A stretch of 64,000 nt of DNA from Geothrix oryzisoli (GTDB lineage Bacteria; Acidobacteriota; Holophagae; Holophagales; Holophagaceae), in NCBI RefSeq assembly GCF_022808865.1, contig NZ_JAKZLB010000001.1, positions 558,001 through 622,000 on the forward strand, read 5' to 3'. This document shows positions 3,904-10,340 of this stretch, in pieces (position 1 is the stretch's first letter; the number at the start of each line of letters is the position of its first letter). The translations under genes and the position numbers were made by a program. The notes below the pieces were generated by a model that saw only the letters and a list, made by a program, of their open reading frames with translations, searched no databases and was not told where the DNA came from.

Positions 3904-4479
3904 TTATCGTTTCTGCTTCGCCCTGCAATCGGGGCAGATCCCGTGCGTGAAATCCGCTTTCGAGTGGCTCTTCACATATTCCTCAAATTGGGACCAGTAG
4001 CCATCGTCATCTTTGATTCGCCGGCACCAGGCGCAAACCGGCAGCAGCCCGGTCAACTCCCTGACCTGGACGAGGATCTCGTCCTTCTCCCTTAAGGCCG
4101 ATTCCAGTGCGGCTTCACGCTCGCGAAGGAGGGTGACGTCGGCCACGAGGACCGAAAAACCAAGGACACGCCCATCCAGGATGTCCGGCGTATAGGTGGC
4201 GATGGTATCCCGGTGGCCACCCTGAGGCAGGGGAATCCGCCGCTCGAACACCTGCTTCTCCCCTTTGAGTGCCGCAAGGATGTGGGGGAGGTTCTTTTCA
4301 TAGAGCGGCCCGAGCAGCTCCTTCAGCGTCATCCCGACCATTTGCTGGGGCGTCTTCCCGAACCATTCGAGGTAGGCATCGTTCGAGAACACGCACCTTT
4401 GCTGACTGTCCCAGTAGGCCACCATCGCAGAGATGTGGTTGACGACGCGCAAGGCGATTTGTGAGGGTGTTTGCACCAT
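3904..4479 (-). CDS. PAS domain protein with C-terminal zinc-ribbon-like motif
   Basis: The 191-residue protein has one PAS domain (residues about 10-110, with SNDAYLEWFGKTPQQMVGM and the DVTLLREREA end). A short coiled coil follows (about 117-140), and then a Cys-rich tail with CAWC at 149-152 and CPDC at 182-185. That tail (ICA/VCAWC, dDxGYW, HGICPDC) recurs in stand-alone sensor or signalling proteins and may bind metal. There is no kinase, HTH or GGDEF output domain, so it probably acts by binding a partner. ATG 4479 has a GGAGG about 9 bases upstream. Base composition is less GC-rich than the flanking core genes. Confidence 0.8.
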   Translation of the reverse strand: MVQTPSQIALRVVNHISAMVAYWDSQQRCVFSNDAYLEWFGKTPQQMVGMTLKELLGPLYEKNLPHILAALKGEKQVFERRIPLPQGGHRDTIATYTPDILDGRVLGFSVLVADVTLLREREAALESALREKDEILVQVRELTGLLPVCAWCRRIKDDDGYWSQFEEYVKSHSKADFTHGICPDCRAKQKR

Positions 4480-4575
4480 CCCTGGAAACCTCCCATTCGC
4501 CAGTCGTTTCGGAAGACGATGATTTTACCATTCGAGGGCCATCAGGCCCGCTTTCCGCCCAGCGTGGATGGGACC

Positions 4576-5073
4576 TCAGGTGAGGGCGTGGAGGTTGCCT
4601 CTCCATACGGCCCAGGTGAACGCGGAGGCGAAAGAGACCCAGGCCCAATAAGGGAGCAGCAAAGCTCCGGCCACACGGCTATGACGCCAGAACATCCTGG
4701 CGGTGGCAAGGATCAGCAGCCACAGCAAGAGGATTTCAGCCAAGGCGAGACCGCCCCGGTGCCAGACGAAGAACAGCCAGGTCCACAAGGCATTCACGGA
4801 CAGCTGGAAAAGAAACAGAGAGAGGGCGCCGCCGGCCTTTCGAAAGCCCCTCTCTCTCCAGACAAGCCAAGCCGAAATGGCCATGAGGATGTAGAGAACC
4901 GTCCAGACGGGTCCAAACAGCCACCCAGGGGGCGCCCAATGGGGACGGGCAAGTGACTGATAGAAGGCACCTGCCTGCACGGAGGCCAGTGCACCCAGCG
5001 CCGCAGCGGCGAAGCAGATGCATAGCCACCCGAGGAGGCCGAGGATTTGTTTGGATGCGGGATGAAGAGTCAT
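4576..5073 (-). CDS. tspO: TspO/MBR family membrane protein
   Basis: The 165-residue integral membrane protein has five predicted helices and the TspO landmarks: YQSLARPHWAPPGWLFGPVWTVLY after helix 1, NALWTWLFFVWHRGGLALAEI, and the final LLPYWAWVSFASAFTWAVWR. TspO binds porphyrins and tryptophan-derived ligands and affects tetrapyrrole or stress responses. The ATG at 5073 gives the usual length; an in-frame ATG at 5106 would add a non-conserved 11 residues. It lies 39 bases downstream of a small membrane protein gene on the same strand, so the two may be co-transcribed. Confidence 0.92.
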   Translation of the reverse strand: MTLHPASKQILGLLGWLCICFAAAALGALASVQAGAFYQSLARPHWAPPGWLFGPVWTVLYILMAISAWLVWRERGFRKAGGALSLFLFQLSVNALWTWLFFVWHRGGLALAEILLLWLLILATARMFWRHSRVAGALLLPYWAWVSFASAFTWAVWRGNLHALT

Positions 5074-5112
5074 TGGTCTTCCGGGGGCACCCAGGCCAAA
5101 CCTCATGGGCGG

Positions 5113-5355
5113 CTAGTGGAGAAGGCTGCGGACAAGCGTCACCAGGACGAGTGTGACCAGGCCCCCGAAGACCGCATAGGCCACCATTCGCCCCCAATGG
5201 CGGGTCTGGGGAGGGAGCGCGTCTTGGACTTCCGGCGAGGACTGGATGGTCGAGGCCCCCAATCCAAAATCGACGCGTTGCCACGATTCGCCGACATGCC
5301 CCGGAAGGAAGGCGGGTTCTTCACCACGCTTTTCCACGAGTTTTCCGTGATCCAT
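5113..5355 (-). CDS. Small single-pass membrane protein, unknown
   Basis: The product has 80 residues when started at ATG 5355, which has GAGGTG about 5 bases upstream. An in-frame ATG at 5394 is also possible. The N-terminal 55 residues are polar. A single hydrophobic helix (VAYAVFGGLVTLVLVTLV) ends the protein, followed by RSLLH, so it looks tail-anchored. It precedes tspO in the same orientation. No family recognised. A sequence resembling an attC end (5376-5382) lies 21 bases upstream of the start. Confidence 0.55.
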   Translation of the reverse strand: MDHGKLVEKRGEEPAFLPGHVGESWQRVDFGLGASTIQSSPEVQDALPPQTRHWGRMVAYAVFGGLVTLVLVTLVRSLLH

Positions 5356-5375: not shown

Positions 5376-5499
5376 GCCAAACGAATGAGGCCAATTGGAC
5401 CTGCCGATGTCAAAGCGACGAGCGAAACCGAGGGAGCGAGGTGCTGAAAGAAAGCGGAAGACAAAGCAGGTGGGGGCCGAGTTGAGCGGAGGGTTGGGC
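5376..5499 (-). repeat. attC-like recombination site 1 (degenerate)
   Basis: On the minus strand the element starts with GCCCAAC (5499-5493), which matches the attC R'' consensus RYYYAAC. A 5-base spacer and GCTCAAC, an L''-like box, follow. It then runs through a central arm and ends near GTTTGGC (5382-5376), one mismatch from GTTRRRY. CACCTGC near the left arm pairs with GCAGGT on the other side. Length is 124 bases, against 125 for site 2, and the first 85 or so bases align well with site 2. A second GCCCTAAC copy sits between this site and the stop of the cupin gene (5509-5516). No integrase gene is in the window. Confidence 0.4.
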
Positions 5500-5517
5500 C
5501 GCGGCAATGTTAGGGCA

Positions 5518-5889
5518 TCAGAGTGGTCGAAGTTGCTCCGCGATTGAGCGCGTCTTCTCAGTCTCTACATCCCCGGTATGTAACGTGGCTTTGCGCTCAA
5601 AGAGCATCAGGTAGCACACTTCCTCAGCAATCGGGTTGTGGCGTACACCTTTTGGGACAACAAACAGTTCCCCTTCGCTCAGTTCGACTGAACGATCCTC
5701 CATTTCGATGCGCAGATGGCCTTGAAGCACATAGAACAATTCATCTTCGTTCTCATGGCTATGCCAGGCCAGCGAACCATGGACCTTGGCGACTTTGACG
5801 AACGAGTCATCGACTTCGCCAATCACACGAGGAGACCATTGCTCCGTAAGCGACAGGGCCACGGACTTTGGGGAGATGGGATTCGACAC
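5518..5889 (-). CDS. Cupin domain protein
   Basis: The 123-residue single-domain cupin has both motifs. Motif 1 is WHSHENEDELFYVLQGHLRI with the metal-binding H-H-E pattern. Motif 2 is ELFVVPKGVRHNPIAEE with the third histidine. Such small cupins bind a divalent metal and act as isomerases, dioxygenases or sensors; nothing here fixes the substrate. The start is GTG at 5889, 6 bases after an AGGAG. The gene has lower GC than the core and is bracketed by two attC-like repeats, with its stop codon 1 base from a GCCCTAAC box. That arrangement resembles an integron cassette. Confidence 0.8.
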   Translation of the reverse strand: MSNPISPKSVALSLTEQWSPRVIGEVDDSFVKVAKVHGSLAWHSHENEDELFYVLQGHLRIEMEDRSVELSEGELFVVPKGVRHNPIAEEVCYLMLFERKATLHTGDVETEKTRSIAEQLRPL

Positions 5890-5902
5890 AGGAACTCCTG
5901 CG

Positions 5903-6027
5903 GACTAGCGAAGGAATCTAAGCGGCCACGCCTGTACCGAGACGCTGAGCGAAGTCGAGGAAAGCGGGAAGCTGAGAGAGAGCGGAAGGCAATGCAGGCG
6001 GGGGCCGAGTAGAGCGAGAGGTTAGGC
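5903..6027 (-). repeat. attC-like recombination site 2
   Basis: On the minus strand, GCCTAAC (6027-6021) matches the attC R'' consensus exactly and begins 1 base after the TAA stop of the orphan gene. GCTCTACTC follows after 5 bases, then GGCCCCCGCCTG (about 6006-5995). This pairs with CAGGCGTGGCC (5934-5924) with a single bulged base, like the extrahelical bases of folded attC sites. GCTTAGA and finally GCTAGTC (5909-5903) occupy the L' and R' positions, the last matching the complement of R'' at only 5 of 7 bases. The next gene starts 14 bases on. The layout fits a partly decayed 125-base attC. Confidence 0.5.
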
Positions 6028-6028
6028 A

Positions 6029-6637
6029 TTAGCGGCGCAAATGTGGTTTGAGATAGTTTTCGATCGCTGTGATAGCCGAAGTAAGATCTTGTGCATATTC
6101 ATCAGGTTCACCTTCGGATATTTCGTAAAGAATATCTCGTTTCATTCTCTTAATTTCAATGTAAGCCTTCTTGGTCTCGGGTTCTGTCGCTGGGTTAATG
6201 ATTGTGATGTAGTTACGCAGGGCAAGAAACAACTCTCGTTCTAGCTTGAATATTGAGTCGCATAGGACATTGAGTGCCTTTCCCCAAAGCACCTCTGCTT
6301 CGATGAGTTCCGCTTGGAGATCGGTTCGAACCTCAGTAACACGATCCCAGCGCTTCTGATAGGCACCAGACATTCCATAAAAATCGAGTTGCTGAAAGTT
6401 CATTTTCTTCGCCTCCTCGTCTGGAGGTTGAGGCTGTTCATTTACCCATACGGCGGGGTTCCTGACATTTTTGAGTGCGTCGCGGTGACGGTATACCGCT
6501 CGTAGAACTCGCCGTGCTAAATCGTATTCACTCGTTCCGCGTAACTGGCGATTCCAGGTGTTCAGCCCTCGAATGGCAACGTAGATGCCGACAAGTGCGC
6601 CGCATGTAAGAACAATGTCCTTGATTTCTGTGAGCAT
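6029..6637 (-). CDS. AT-rich orphan gene, membrane-anchored hypothetical protein
   Basis: The 202-residue product has one N-terminal transmembrane helix (IVLTCGALVGIYVAIRGL, about residues 8-25). A basic, helical cytoplasmic region follows that contains RRVLRAVYRHRDALK and several charged amphipathic helices, ending in LKPHLRR. No domain recognised. The ATG at 6637 is preferred to the upstream in-frame ATG (6739) because a perfect GTTAGGC (6667-6661) lies between them, 23 bases before 6637. The stop is followed after one base by GCCTAAC. This is the lowest-GC gene in the window and its codon use differs from its neighbours, so it was probably acquired by transfer. Confidence 0.6.
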   Translation of the reverse strand: MLTEIKDIVLTCGALVGIYVAIRGLNTWNRQLRGTSEYDLARRVLRAVYRHRDALKNVRNPAVWVNEQPQPPDEEAKKMNFQQLDFYGMSGAYQKRWDRVTEVRTDLQAELIEAEVLWGKALNVLCDSIFKLERELFLALRNYITIINPATEPETKKAYIEIKRMKRDILYEISEGEPDEYAQDLTSAITAIENYLKPHLRR

Positions 6638-6660
6638 GCGGTTGGCCTCGCAAATTGGAT

Positions 6661-6726
6661 GCCTAACTACCCTTAGATGGTAACGAACGAAGAAGACGGT
6701 GATGGGACCACTCTCCCACCACCGTC
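6661..6726 (-). repeat. attC-like R' end and adjacent hairpin (partial site 3)
   Basis: On the minus strand a perfect GTTRRRY box, GTTAGGC, spans 6667-6661, just upstream of the orphan gene start. Before it, a 13-base inverted repeat (6695-6707 with 6714-6726, one mismatch, 6-base loop) could form the arm of a further attC. No matching R'' was found before the tricorn-like gene ends at 6844, so the right boundary is undefined. The remaining 117 bases to 6844 show no gene. Confidence 0.3.
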
Positions 6727-6843
6727 CATCCTCGTCCATCAGCAGCTGGCTTTGTCTTTTCTTGGTGCCTTCTCGGCATCAGCTGCGCTGATACGCGAGA
6801 CATACAGAAACCTGATGGTGACTCCTGTTTCAGTCCGAACGGC

Positions 6844-9800
6844 CTACCGCTTCGGGTAGGCCGGCACCGCCGGGAAACTCGGCGTGGGGTTCTCCTTGAG
6901 CTGCTTCAGCAGGGTCTCGATGCCCACTTCGAGCTGGCGGTCATGGCCCTGCAGGAGGCTGGCGGGATCGTTCTCCACGGTGAGGTCGGGGTCGGCGCCG
7001 TGGTTCTCCACCCACCACTTCCCTTCCCGGCCGTAGAAGCCGTTGTTGCTCTGCTCCACGCGGCCGCCATCCAGGGTGAGCTGGGTGTTGATGATGCCCA
7101 CCAGGCCGCCCCAGCTGGGCACGCCCACGATGGGGCCCAGCTTGCGGGCCTTCACGTGCTCGAGGAAGGCCTCGCCGTCGCTGCCGTTCTGCTCGTTGGT
7201 GAGGAAGACGTAGCGACCGTCGCTGGCCGTGCCGGGGTAGCGGAAGGGGCCCATGCCGCGCAGCACGTTGAAGCCGACCTGCTTGCGTTCCAGCTTGTCG
7301 ATCATGAAGAACTCGGTCCAGCCGCCGCCGTTGCCGCGCACATCGATGACGATGCCCTTCTTGTAGCGGAAGGCGCGCCAGTACTTGTCGAACTGGCCGA
7401 TGTTCTGGTCGCCCATGGCCGTGAGGTGCATGTAGCCCAGCTGGCCGTTGGAGGCCTTGTCCACGGCGGCGATGTTGTCGGCCACCCAGCGCTCGTAGCG
7501 CAGGGGCCCCTCATTGGGGACGGGCTCGACCTCGATGGTGCGGGCCCCGTCCAGGGTGGGCTTCGCGTTCACCGTCAGCGTGACCTTCTGGCCCTTGATG
7601 ACCTGGAGGCGCGCCTCGATGGCCTCAGGCGCCTTGAGGGGCCTGCCGTCGATGGCCAGCAGGTAGTCGCCTTCCTTCACCTTGGGCGCGGGATCGGCCA
7701 GCGGTGCCTTGAGGTCGCGGGCGTAGGCCGTGGGGCCATAGACCTTGGCGAAGCGGTAGACGCCGTTCTCGGCCTTGTAGTCGGCGCCGAGGAATCCCGG
7801 ATAGACCGGGCTCGGGGCCAGCTTCGCCGGTCCCAGGTCGCCGCCCGACACATAGGTGTGGCTCACGCACAGCTCGCCCACCATCTGGCTCAGCAGCCAG
7901 TTCAGTTCCTGGCGGGAGTTCAGCTCGGGGAGCCAGGCGCGGTACTTGGCGCCGATGGCGGCCCAGTCGCTGCCGTTCATGTTCACGTCGTAGAAGAAGT
8001 CCCGGTACCAGCGCCAGGTGTCCTCGAAGATCTGCTTCCACTCGGCCCGGGGGTCGGCGGTCATGATCATCCGCTCCAGGTCCAGCTTCTCGGGGAGGGC
8101 CTTGGAGGCGAACACGGCCGCGGCCTCACCCACGTGGAAGTTCGGCCCCTTGCGGAGAAGCAGGCGCCGGCCCTCGGCATCGAAGGTCCACTCGCTGATG
8201 GCGTCGGTCAGCACCACCTCCTTGTCCTTCTTGGCGGTGGCATCGTAGAGGTGCAGCTTCCACTTGTCGGCGCCGCGGGGCGCGTAGAACTCTTCCACCA
8301 CGCTGTCATCCCAGCCCTCGACCTCGTCCCAGCCCACGAGGCCACGACCGGCCTTGAGGTGGAACAGGTTGCCGGGCTTCACCGGCAGGGGCGCGATGCG
8401 GTCGGACAGGCCCGCCACATCGATGCGGAAGGCCGAGGCGGACGAGAGCGATGACAGGACCGACGCCTTGTCCTCACCGGCCTTCAGCTTCACCGCCATG
8501 ACCTGCACGGGCGCGGACTGGATGTGGTTGTCCTGGCTGGGGTCGAGCCTCGTATGGAAGTTGCTGTAGCTCAGGAAGTAGAGGGTGCTGCCGTCCTGGT
8601 CGAAGGTGGGGTTCACGCAGTCGTAGAACCCGTCCGTGAGGGCCACCTTCTGCTTCGTGGCAAGGTTGAAGAGGTAGATGCGGCCGTTGCGGCTGGGCTC
8701 CACCACCGAGTAGGCCACCCACTGGGAGTCCGGCGCCCAGGCGTAGTCGCTCACTTCCCAGGTGAACTGGTCGTTCTTCAGGTCGTGGAACTCGTCCACC
8801 TTGGTGAGCTTCTTCGTGGCCACGTCCATGACATAGATGGCGAAGCTCTTGTCACCGAAGAGGACCTTCGTGCCATCCGGGCTCCACTCCAGGTGGTAGA
8901 GGGCGGTCTTGAGGCCCGTGGGAACGCGCTCCGCCGCGCCGCCCTCCGCAGGCTGGACATACAGGTCGTAGTCGCCGCTGGCATCGCTGAAGTAGGCCAC
9001 GCGCTTGCCGTCCGGGGACAGGCGCGGGAAGCGCTCGCGCACGCCCGGCGTCTGCGTGAGGTTCTTCGCGGGCTTCGTCGCGTCCGTGGGCAGGAGGAAG
9101 ACTTCGCCCCGGGCCTCGAAGACGGCGGTCTGGCCCGTCAGGCTCATGGCCTGGATCCACTCCTTGGGGTTCACGGGATGGGGCGCCACCTTCCAGCCGT
9201 CGCTGGCGGTGGTGACGGGGACGGCGTGGACGGCCTTCGTGGTCAGGTCGAGGGCCTGGAGATGGCCACCCTGCACGAAGACGACCGTACGGCCGTCCGT
9301 GCAGGGCTGCTGCACATCGAAGTCCTTGAGGTCCGTCAGCTGCTCCACCGCCTTGGTGGCGGGATCCACGGCGTAGAGGTTGGTGATGCCGTTGGCGCCG
9401 CGGTCGGATTCGAAGAGCACCTTGCCGTTCGCCCAGATGGGGGCGCCGTTGCGGCCCACGTAGTCCGTCAGCTTCGTGAAGCCGCCGGTCTTCAGGTCCG
9501 CCAGCCAGAGGTCCTGGTGCAGGCCGCCCTTGTAGCGTTTCCAGTAGTACTCGACATGCCCCTTGGAGCTGTAGGCCAGGCGCTGGCCATCCGGCGACAG
9601 CGTGCCCTGGACGGCCCGCGGAACCGCGAGGGCGGTGGGTTCGTGCCCGTCCAGGTCCACGGTGAAGAGCCGCTCGATGGCGCGGCGATCATATCCGCCG
9701 AGGGCCTTGACCACCACCTGGCGGCTGTCCGGCGTCCAGCCCTGCACGGAGGCGTACCCGCCCCAGGTGAGGCGCTTCGGCGTGCCGCCCTCGGCCGGCA

Positions 9801-10068
9801 TGACATAGGCCTCGGTGGCCCCGTCGTACTGGGCGCTGAAGGCGATCCACTTGCCATCGGGGCTGAAGCGGGCCGCGGTCTCCAGGCCGGGATGCGTCGT
9901 CAGGCGCCGGGCCGCGCCGCCCTTGAGGGAGCCGAGCCAGAGGTCGCTTTCCCAGGTGAACACGACGCGATCGCCATGCACATCCGGCGAGCTGATGAAG
10001 CGGGGGGCGCGGTCCTGGGCCACCAGGGCGCAGGCCACGAGAAGCACGGCGGAAGCACGAAAGCGCAT
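6844..10068 (-). CDS. Tricorn-like S41 protease, secreted
   Basis: The 1074-residue protein starts with a signal peptide (MRFRASAVLLVACALVAQ). It continues with TolB/WD-like propeller repeats (about 25-330 and 340-680, with blades such as FSPDGKWIAFSAQYDG), a tricorn core domain, a PDZ domain (about 765-850) and the S41 catalytic domain. Tricorn catalytic elements are present: the Ser-His pair in CVSHTYV near residue 736, the nucleophile in NGSDGEAF near 964, and the C-terminal glutamate in WWVENHGADPD. Unlike archaeal tricorn it is exported, so it probably degrades peptides in the periplasm. ATG 10068 has GGAG 6 bases upstream. The ORF extends upstream, but the signal peptide fixes the start. 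Confidence 0.92.
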   Translation of the reverse strand: MRFRASAVLLVACALVAQDRAPRFISSPDVHGDRVVFTWESDLWLGSLKGGAARRLTTHPGLETAARFSPDGKWIAFSAQYDGATEAYVMPAEGGTPKRLTWGGYASVQGWTPDSRQVVVKALGGYDRRAIERLFTVDLDGHEPTALAVPRAVQGTLSPDGQRLAYSSKGHVEYYWKRYKGGLHQDLWLADLKTGGFTKLTDYVGRNGAPIWANGKVLFESDRGANGITNLYAVDPATKAVEQLTDLKDFDVQQPCTDGRTVVFVQGGHLQALDLTTKAVHAVPVTTASDGWKVAPHPVNPKEWIQAMSLTGQTAVFEARGEVFLLPTDATKPAKNLTQTPGVRERFPRLSPDGKRVAYFSDASGDYDLYVQPAEGGAAERVPTGLKTALYHLEWSPDGTKVLFGDKSFAIYVMDVATKKLTKVDEFHDLKNDQFTWEVSDYAWAPDSQWVAYSVVEPSRNGRIYLFNLATKQKVALTDGFYDCVNPTFDQDGSTLYFLSYSNFHTRLDPSQDNHIQSAPVQVMAVKLKAGEDKASVLSSLSSASAFRIDVAGLSDRIAPLPVKPGNLFHLKAGRGLVGWDEVEGWDDSVVEEFYAPRGADKWKLHLYDATAKKDKEVVLTDAISEWTFDAEGRRLLLRKGPNFHVGEAAAVFASKALPEKLDLERMIMTADPRAEWKQIFEDTWRWYRDFFYDVNMNGSDWAAIGAKYRAWLPELNSRQELNWLLSQMVGELCVSHTYVSGGDLGPAKLAPSPVYPGFLGADYKAENGVYRFAKVYGPTAYARDLKAPLADPAPKVKEGDYLLAIDGRPLKAPEAIEARLQVIKGQKVTLTVNAKPTLDGARTIEVEPVPNEGPLRYERWVADNIAAVDKASNGQLGYMHLTAMGDQNIGQFDKYWRAFRYKKGIVIDVRGNGGGWTEFFMIDKLERKQVGFNVLRGMGPFRYPGTASDGRYVFLTNEQNGSDGEAFLEHVKARKLGPIVGVPSWGGLVGIINTQLTLDGGRVEQSNNGFYGREGKWWVENHGADPDLTVENDPASLLQGHDRQLEVGIETLLKQLKENPTPSFPAVPAYPKR

Positions 10069-10212
10069 CAAAGACTCCGGTGAACGGTGGGTCACTATAC
10101 CTCGTTTAGCGATGAGTATGGAATCCAATCCGGGCCGGACCGGGGTGGCCACCTCGAATCGCCTTGTGGCGCCTGGAAACTGGTGATAGGTTGAAGTTCC
10201 AACAGGCTTCCC

Positions 10213-10281
10213 ATGTCCCACGCCGGTTTCGCCCTCATTCCCGCCGCCATCGCGATTATTCGGTCGCGCGAGGGGGCATAG
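10213..10281 (+). CDS. Ile-rich leader peptide of ilvA (attenuation)
   Basis: The 22-codon ORF reads M-S-H-A-G-F-A-L-I-P-A-A-I-A-I-I-R-S-R-E-G-A. It has four isoleucines among codons 9-16, including a tandem ATT ATT pair, plus one leucine. It lies 73 bases before ilvA, the first committed enzyme of isoleucine synthesis, and directly precedes a strong GC hairpin with a U-rich tail. The pattern matches ribosome-mediated attenuation leaders such as those of ilv operons. Only a weak Shine-Dalgarno (AGG about 8 bases upstream) is visible. Recognition rests on position, codon content and the following terminator. Confidence 0.65.
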   Translation: MSHAGFALIPAAIAIIRSREGA

Positions 10282-10303
10282 GCCGGATCCGATCCACGAT
10301 TCC

Positions 10304-10340
10304 AAGCCCCCCGCACCGCAAGGTCGGGGGGTTCTTCTTT
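10304..10340 (+). terminator. Attenuator terminator upstream of ilvA
   Basis: CCCCCCG (10307-10313) pairs with CGGGGGG (10325-10331). An inner ACC/GGT stem is capped by a GCAA tetraloop, with one bulged C. The hairpin is followed by GUUCUUCUUU. A run of five G at 10272-10276, inside the last leader codons, could pair instead with the C run and act as antiterminator. A ribosome paused on the ATT codons (10255-10260) would leave those G exposed, whereas one at the stop codon would cover them. Confidence 0.65.

Follow-up and report, generated by a model that had tools for sequence, protein, structure and literature searches.

Organization of the cassette locus

In the 64-kb stretch of Geothrix oryzisoli DNA analysed here (the window), a tricorn-type protease gene precedes a short locus on the same strand that has the layout of an integron gene cassette array. 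Its features, in window positions and read along the minus strand, are as follows.

6844-10305, minus: tricorn-type protease gene
6694-6727, minus: terminator-like hairpin with a 14-pair stem in the terminator scan, first half of a conserved platform
6661-6678, minus: attI-like core at the left border of the array, with L box ATCTAAG (6678-6672), 4-nt spacer GGTA and R box G^TTAGGC (6667-6661)
6029-6637, minus: first cassette gene, coding for a 202-aa orphan protein, GC 47%
5903-6027, minus: attC of the orphan cassette, 125 nt, with R'' GCCTAAC and a degenerate R' GCTAGTC (5909-5903)
5518-5889, minus: second cassette gene, coding for a 123-aa cupin (PF07883), GC 53%
5376-5499, minus: attC of the cupin cassette, 124 nt, with R'' GCCCAAC (5499-5493) and R' GTTTGGC
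5113-5355, minus: 80-aa gene, a former third cassette whose own attC is missing here

The orphan and cupin genes are both single genes that start soon after a G^TTRRRY sequence and are closely followed by an attC in the same orientation, as is typical of integron gene cassettes, and relatives show that such a unit passes between species as a whole. Their GC contents compare with 68% for the whole window. The two repeats are 80% identical over 65 nt according to a general repeat finder, and an Rfam scan of the window at gathering thresholds gave zero matches. Chance matches comparable to the hairpin are also expected in the terminator scan, and the hairpin sequence is kept in ten Geothrix genomes.

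These results largely agree with an initial annotation of this DNA, which had described an integron cassette-like array without an integrase, a base composition of the two genes unlike that of their neighbours, a GTTAGGC 23 bases before the orphan start (the R box, with the ATG at 6637), and two related elements of 125 and 124 bases, one with a degenerate R'. The elements proved to be attC sites of these lengths, and the degenerate box is that of the orphan attC. Two of its statements held in part. The strings GCC(C)TAAC, reported one base after each stop, are present, but the R'' of the cupin attC is the GCCCAAC 18 nt past the stop and not GCCCTAAC at 5516-5509. The array had been confined to 5376-6726, which does contain two cassettes, but it extends further to the right, since in the sister species G024 the 80-aa gene forms a cassette and has an attC of its own.

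TspO is encoded next, after the 80-aa gene. In the window, TspO and PAS genes (3904-5106) occupy the place of the third cassette's attC and/or of a conserved 116-aa gene found in G024 and several relatives. In most relatives, the matches to the TspO region are located elsewhere. This is a second exchange, on the right-hand side of the locus.

Cassette genes

The orphan gene is present in 3 of 47 genomes, namely this one, G002 (at the same locus) and G018. The orphan proteins of this genome and G002 share 86% aa identity, with a dN/dS of 0.11. Pfam, NCBIfam and PADLOC gave no match for this protein and PHROG a single weak one (E 0.06); its structural model is all-helical at low confidence (pLDDT 53). 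The cupin cassette (dN/dS 0.06) also occurs at the window locus in G024 and at another locus in G017, where it is part of an array with five or more attCs and shares 97% aa identity. The 80-aa gene has a dN/dS of 0.11, and its G024 orthologue (91% aa identity) has an 88.9-bit attC behind it; the attC of the third cassette is thus preserved in G024 and absent in the window.

Identity and decay of the attC sites

The initial annotation had proposed a covariance-model search for attCs. The model used here (CM R1) was built from 26 aligned attCs, all from the intI-linked array of the same genome and none from the window. It matched both sites strongly, 6027-5903 (minus strand) with 95.2 bits (E 1.8e-23) and 5499-5376 (minus strand) with 79.8 bits (E 3.2e-19), 404 nt apart, and found no third match in the 64-kb window. 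When each window repeat was compared with the genome by BLAST, more than 30 relatives were recovered (best E 2e-26 and 8e-35), the majority arranged head to tail on contig C2, with three others next to the integrase on C4. The main-array attCs are too alike for compensatory changes to be demonstrable, so the case for attC structure is based on fold energies and on the established rules for attCs.

Neither window attC combines bottom-strand R and L stems with GTT in R', as a mobilisable attC does. The predicted fold of the orphan attC has no R stem. The cupin attC, with GTTTGGC in the window versus GTTAGGC in G024, keeps the GTT of R', and it folds no better than shuffled sequences (main-array control, z -4.3). 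GTT was present in R' of 30/32 main-array attCs versus 7/14 satellite attCs (p 0.0016), and a fold with R stem was predicted for 28/32 versus 6/14 (p 0.003), the window pair being among the worst. With the R stems lost, the two window cassettes are probably nearly immobile now. The dN/dS values of 0.06-0.11 in all three genes suggest that the cassette genes are kept by selection. We infer that capture of the cassettes was followed by their fixation as the sites decayed, and that they have been retained for their gene products.

The integrase and the main array

A TIGR02249 profile search found no intI in the 64-kb window, in line with the initial annotation, and a single full, intact copy elsewhere in the genome (C4:518770-519714; 466 bits versus a cut-off of 265). 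The contig of this gene, which is not the contig of the window, ends 2.3 kb away from it. The locus is a CALIN in the sense of IntegronFinder (Cury 2016), a group of attC sites without an integron integrase, in that at least two attCs matching the covariance model lie close together with no intI nearby.

The attI linked to intI, GTCCAATTCAAAG^TTAGGC, is followed by three attCs up to the contig end. The array on C2 terminates near a contig end in facing orientation to the C4 array, and the two are probably one main array of 32 detected attCs across an assembly gap. Two main-array attCs (C2:713379-713502 and 719174-719297) have the same score and sequence, and the cassettes before them are identical over 460 bp; one copy lies at the contig end, and the pair may reflect duplication or an assembly effect. 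Broken intI genes, split or cut by stops, were seen at G055:C1:774208-775153 and G047:C18:629153-629671, indicating decay of intI within the genus.

The attI-like core and its platform

The window core has the layout of an attI site, with an inverted L box, an R box, a predicted crossover at G^TT, and a position at the left border of the array. The same layout recurs at most other satellite arrays of the genome and at the intI-linked attI, which in Geothrix reads GTCCAAT-TCAAA-GTTAGGC. The window L box (ATCTAA) is one base off the genus form and the spacer is 4 nt long. No intI lies in cis beside the core. The distal attI accessory box TAGGCGAAC, present at many intI-linked sites and 13 orphan sites, is absent from the window platform. 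We also considered whether the platform is a decayed attC. Its flank can self-fold up to GTTAGGC, but the L box is inverted relative to the L' box of an attC, so that the attI reading fits better.

The platform was found in related species. Hairpin and core stand behind the same gene in ten genomes, this one included. The flanking genes keep their order in relatives, with the protease gene to the left and thioesterase and aminopeptidase genes to the right. In relatives the platform reads GTCTAAAGGTAG^TTAGGC, and the counterpart of the window core ATCTAAG-GGTA-GTTAGGC is GTCTAAAGGTAGTTAGGC. The sequences part directly after it: conservation among the ten genomes reaches as far as the R box, and what lies beyond is unrelated. 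The first genes belong to nine unrelated families, the orphan being common to this genome and G002 and the eight others all different. In G024, which keeps the platform, a different first gene is followed by the cupin and 80-aa genes known from the window, each with an attC. A hairpin of the platform kind, with neither core nor cassettes, stands in G007. A tree of the protease end, based on this single gene, resolves too weakly to tell if the platform arose once. Gene content at this locus is not conserved among the relatives; its presence in all of them, with core-like composition, would have spoken against the initial annotation. The gene immediately behind the core has been replaced repeatedly between species, a sign that the left border was used more than once.

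Two other origins can be weighed at this point. The platform might be the left-over attI of a complete integron that once stood here and lost its intI. The core does have an attI layout, intI loss is one of the proposed CALIN origins, and broken intI copies exist in G047 and G055. However, no trace of an intI was found, and past the core the platform shares just short chance matches with the intI/attI region. Moreover, the platform starts shortly behind the protease stop, which leaves just 140-191 bp between stop and R box in the ten genomes. We regard this origin as very improbable for the window locus; intI loss may be the origin of larger orphan arrays with the distal box. Relocation of a piece of the main array by chromosome rearrangement would explain why the window attCs belong to the same family as those of the main array, but the flanking gene order is the same in relatives and no cassette is held in common with the main array. 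This makes relocation the least credible of the origins considered.

Satellite arrays in the same genome

Besides the window locus, small attC satellites lie at C1:1022068-1023584, C4:372536-373161, C4:130000-131873, C3:83831-84848 and C3:181412. The left end of every satellite is a G^TTAGG box. A cassette can contribute only TTAGGC, so the sequence preceding it is target DNA. In this target DNA, RYYYAA stands 5-6 nt before G^TTAGG in five of six satellites (window included), three of them having exactly GTCTAA; the background in the window sequence is 0.0015 per position for RYYYAA and 0.00016 for exact GTCYAA. The sixth satellite (C4:371225) has no RYYYAA box and carries a distal attI box, TTTAGGCGAACC, upstream.

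These borders bear on a further explanation, by which a cassette was inserted once, off target, at a low-specificity attG site and the array later changed through attC x attC exchange and deletion, its attI look being incidental. Off-target insertion by IntI is documented in the literature, and the window core indeed has a 4-nt spacer and no distal box. An L box at most satellites is less easily reconciled with this explanation, and so is the repeated replacement of the gene right behind the core, which suggests that the left border was reused. We consider a single off-target event unlikely.

No satellite cassette of this genome, the window locus included, has a copy in the main array. Traffic here would therefore be older, and recent traffic at the window locus is unsupported.

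Proposed mode of insertion

In the established reaction, IntI joins the bottom strand of a cassette's attC, in folded form, to double-stranded attI at the G^TT of the R box, so that the new cassette stands first; attI itself consists of an L and an R box, sometimes with accessory sites (PMC4792948). By analogy, IntI from the main integron on C4 would recombine the attC of a free cassette with the G^TTAGGC of the window core in trans. The platform would supply the L and R boxes, and each insertion would place the new cassette directly behind the G. The newest cassette would then be first in line with the older ones to its right, which would account for the different first genes between species. 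Judging from sequence, IntI probably acts on this core. Taken together, our preferred reading, to which we assign a probability of roughly 0.78, is that the window locus is an orphan-attI (CALIN-type) array behind the protease-gene terminator, filled in trans by a remote IntI, with cassettes largely immobilised by attC decay.

Orphan attI-like sites and shared cassettes in the genus

Forty-seven genomes of the genus were searched with the pattern GTCYAAN{5,6}GTTAGG, and 79 sites were read. An attC follows at 68 of them, ten lie where a contig ends within 460 bp and one has no attC, which gives 68 of 69 testable sites. A reversed-pattern control yields match counts of a similar order, so the raw count is not evidence in itself; the attC that follows nearly every match is. 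Since the pattern presets the L box, this census shows that a core predicts an array and not the reverse; two clusters have no visible core, G044:C1:3180692 and G002:C2:1005767. By context, 23 sites are linked to intI, 8 fall within arrays, and 48 show no intI and no attC just upstream, although in draft genomes some of these 48 may be contig fragments. The distal box was present at 13 of the 48.

Because of draft fragmentation we relied on three genomes with one intI over the cut-off apiece: G044 and G046, both assembled as a single contig, and G002, assembled as two. G044 has a 28-attC array at intI and a 31-attC orphan array almost 1 Mb distant. There are 21 attCs at intI and 19, 26 and 8 at three orphan sites in G046, and 18 at intI and 21, 27 and 4 at three orphan sites in G002. 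Several cassettes were shared between these arrays. In G046, the orphan arrays at 2604k and 2165k contain single cassettes with 100% identity (326-538 bp) to intI cassettes 5, 8, 9 and 12, cassette 14 is 99.8% identical to an orphan-array cassette, and one further cassette is common to two orphan arrays. Two cassettes are common to the intI array and the orphan array in G044, and one is shared between orphan arrays in G002. In these closed or near-closed genomes, as much as 1.9 Mb separates arrays that hold identical single cassettes. In the eight pairs with readable edges, identity stops on the right within 3 bases of the cassette's own attC G^TTAGG, and the neighbours differ, which makes the single cassette the moving unit; left edges are blurred in some pairs, where the preceding attCs are alike. 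This identity across arrays in the three genomes is the strongest evidence that IntI acts on distant arrays in trans.

Large attI-headed arrays lacking an integrase, with up to 31 attCs, include L315 (G044:C1:1530000-1548500), L311-L313 (G046) and L319-L320 (G002), and match or exceed the intI-linked array of the same genome in size. We also observed an ORF-less module of about 215 bp that starts with G^TTAGGCCGCCCAACCAGCGG and ends not in an attC but in a full attI (distal box and GTCCAAGTCTAG^TTAGG). It occurs at G000:C4:521126-521339 (L077:6126-6339) and C2 near 718526, and in G006, G014, G045, G002, G017, G043 and G052; in G006, G014 and G045 it lies directly behind the intI-linked attI. 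Such a module could be a vehicle for the spread of attI. Outside the genus, a pattern scan (loci L235-L294) located the core GTCYAATTYAAAGTTAGG in single records of Acidobacteria, Elusimicrobia, Photobacterium and Achromatium. It recurred in Nostoc and marine Alphaproteobacteria, and chance or unrelated repeats may account for many of the matches outside the genus.

Relation to known systems

CALINs have been proposed to arise by off-target insertion by IntI elsewhere in the genome, by intI loss or by rearrangement (PMC8618304), and CALINs at conserved loci are reported from Xanthomonas (PMC12444791). What sets the window array apart is its start at an attI-like core shared between species, and sister Geothrix genomes add single-cassette identity between attI-headed arrays and the array linked to intI. 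Other than in class 1, attI sites go undetected by IntegronFinder (PMC9024848). In the Shewanella prophage M16-3, an intI-less CALIN begins with the same attI as a complete integron on that prophage (PMC9892861). That is a single prophage case, whereas the Geothrix arrays are chromosomal, numerous, and at fixed loci in many species.

According to papers that cite the original report (Loot 2024, Nat Microbiol), attG sites receive IntI-inserted cassettes in the chromosome outside the integron and are non-classical and broadly distributed. Compared with attG as those citing papers describe it, the window border is attI-like in layout, and its reuse at a single locus spans ten species. The L box of attI1 in class 1 integrons is inverted and reads CCCTAAA (PMC4792948). 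The Geothrix intI-linked attI has the same L/R layout with a G^TT crossover; the window copy differs in its 4-nt spacer and in lacking an accessory box and intI in cis. In the deltaattI-type gene cassettes of mobile integrons, described for clinical integrons with resistance genes, attI sequence takes the place of the terminal attC (PMC12901181). The ORF-less Geothrix modules likewise end in attI, and they are not part of the window locus.

CALINs, off-target insertion, CALINs at conserved loci and one attI-headed CALIN, that of the Shewanella prophage, are therefore known already. In the open-access literature we found no paper on Geothrix integrons. Nor did we find in that literature a genus-wide set of attI-headed, intI-less arrays that exchange cassettes, and such a set appears undescribed there.

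Implications for Geothrix integrons

Many integrase-less Geothrix arrays have attI-like heads and share identical single cassettes with the intI array, and at the window locus cassettes turn over behind a fixed border. This combination argues for insertion in trans at specific sites. It makes the question of CALIN origin testable with one IntI and natural cores that vary in L box, spacer and accessory box. In Geothrix the integron is more likely than not a distributed one, in which one IntI serves several chromosomal arrays headed by attI-like sites and single cassettes move between them. The fixed orphan sites, that of the window among them, would be landing pads of long standing, with their cargo exchanged in the course of species divergence, and attI itself may be spreading on ORF-less cassettes. 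Thus, the cassette repertoire of a genome may lie at several loci under one integrase.
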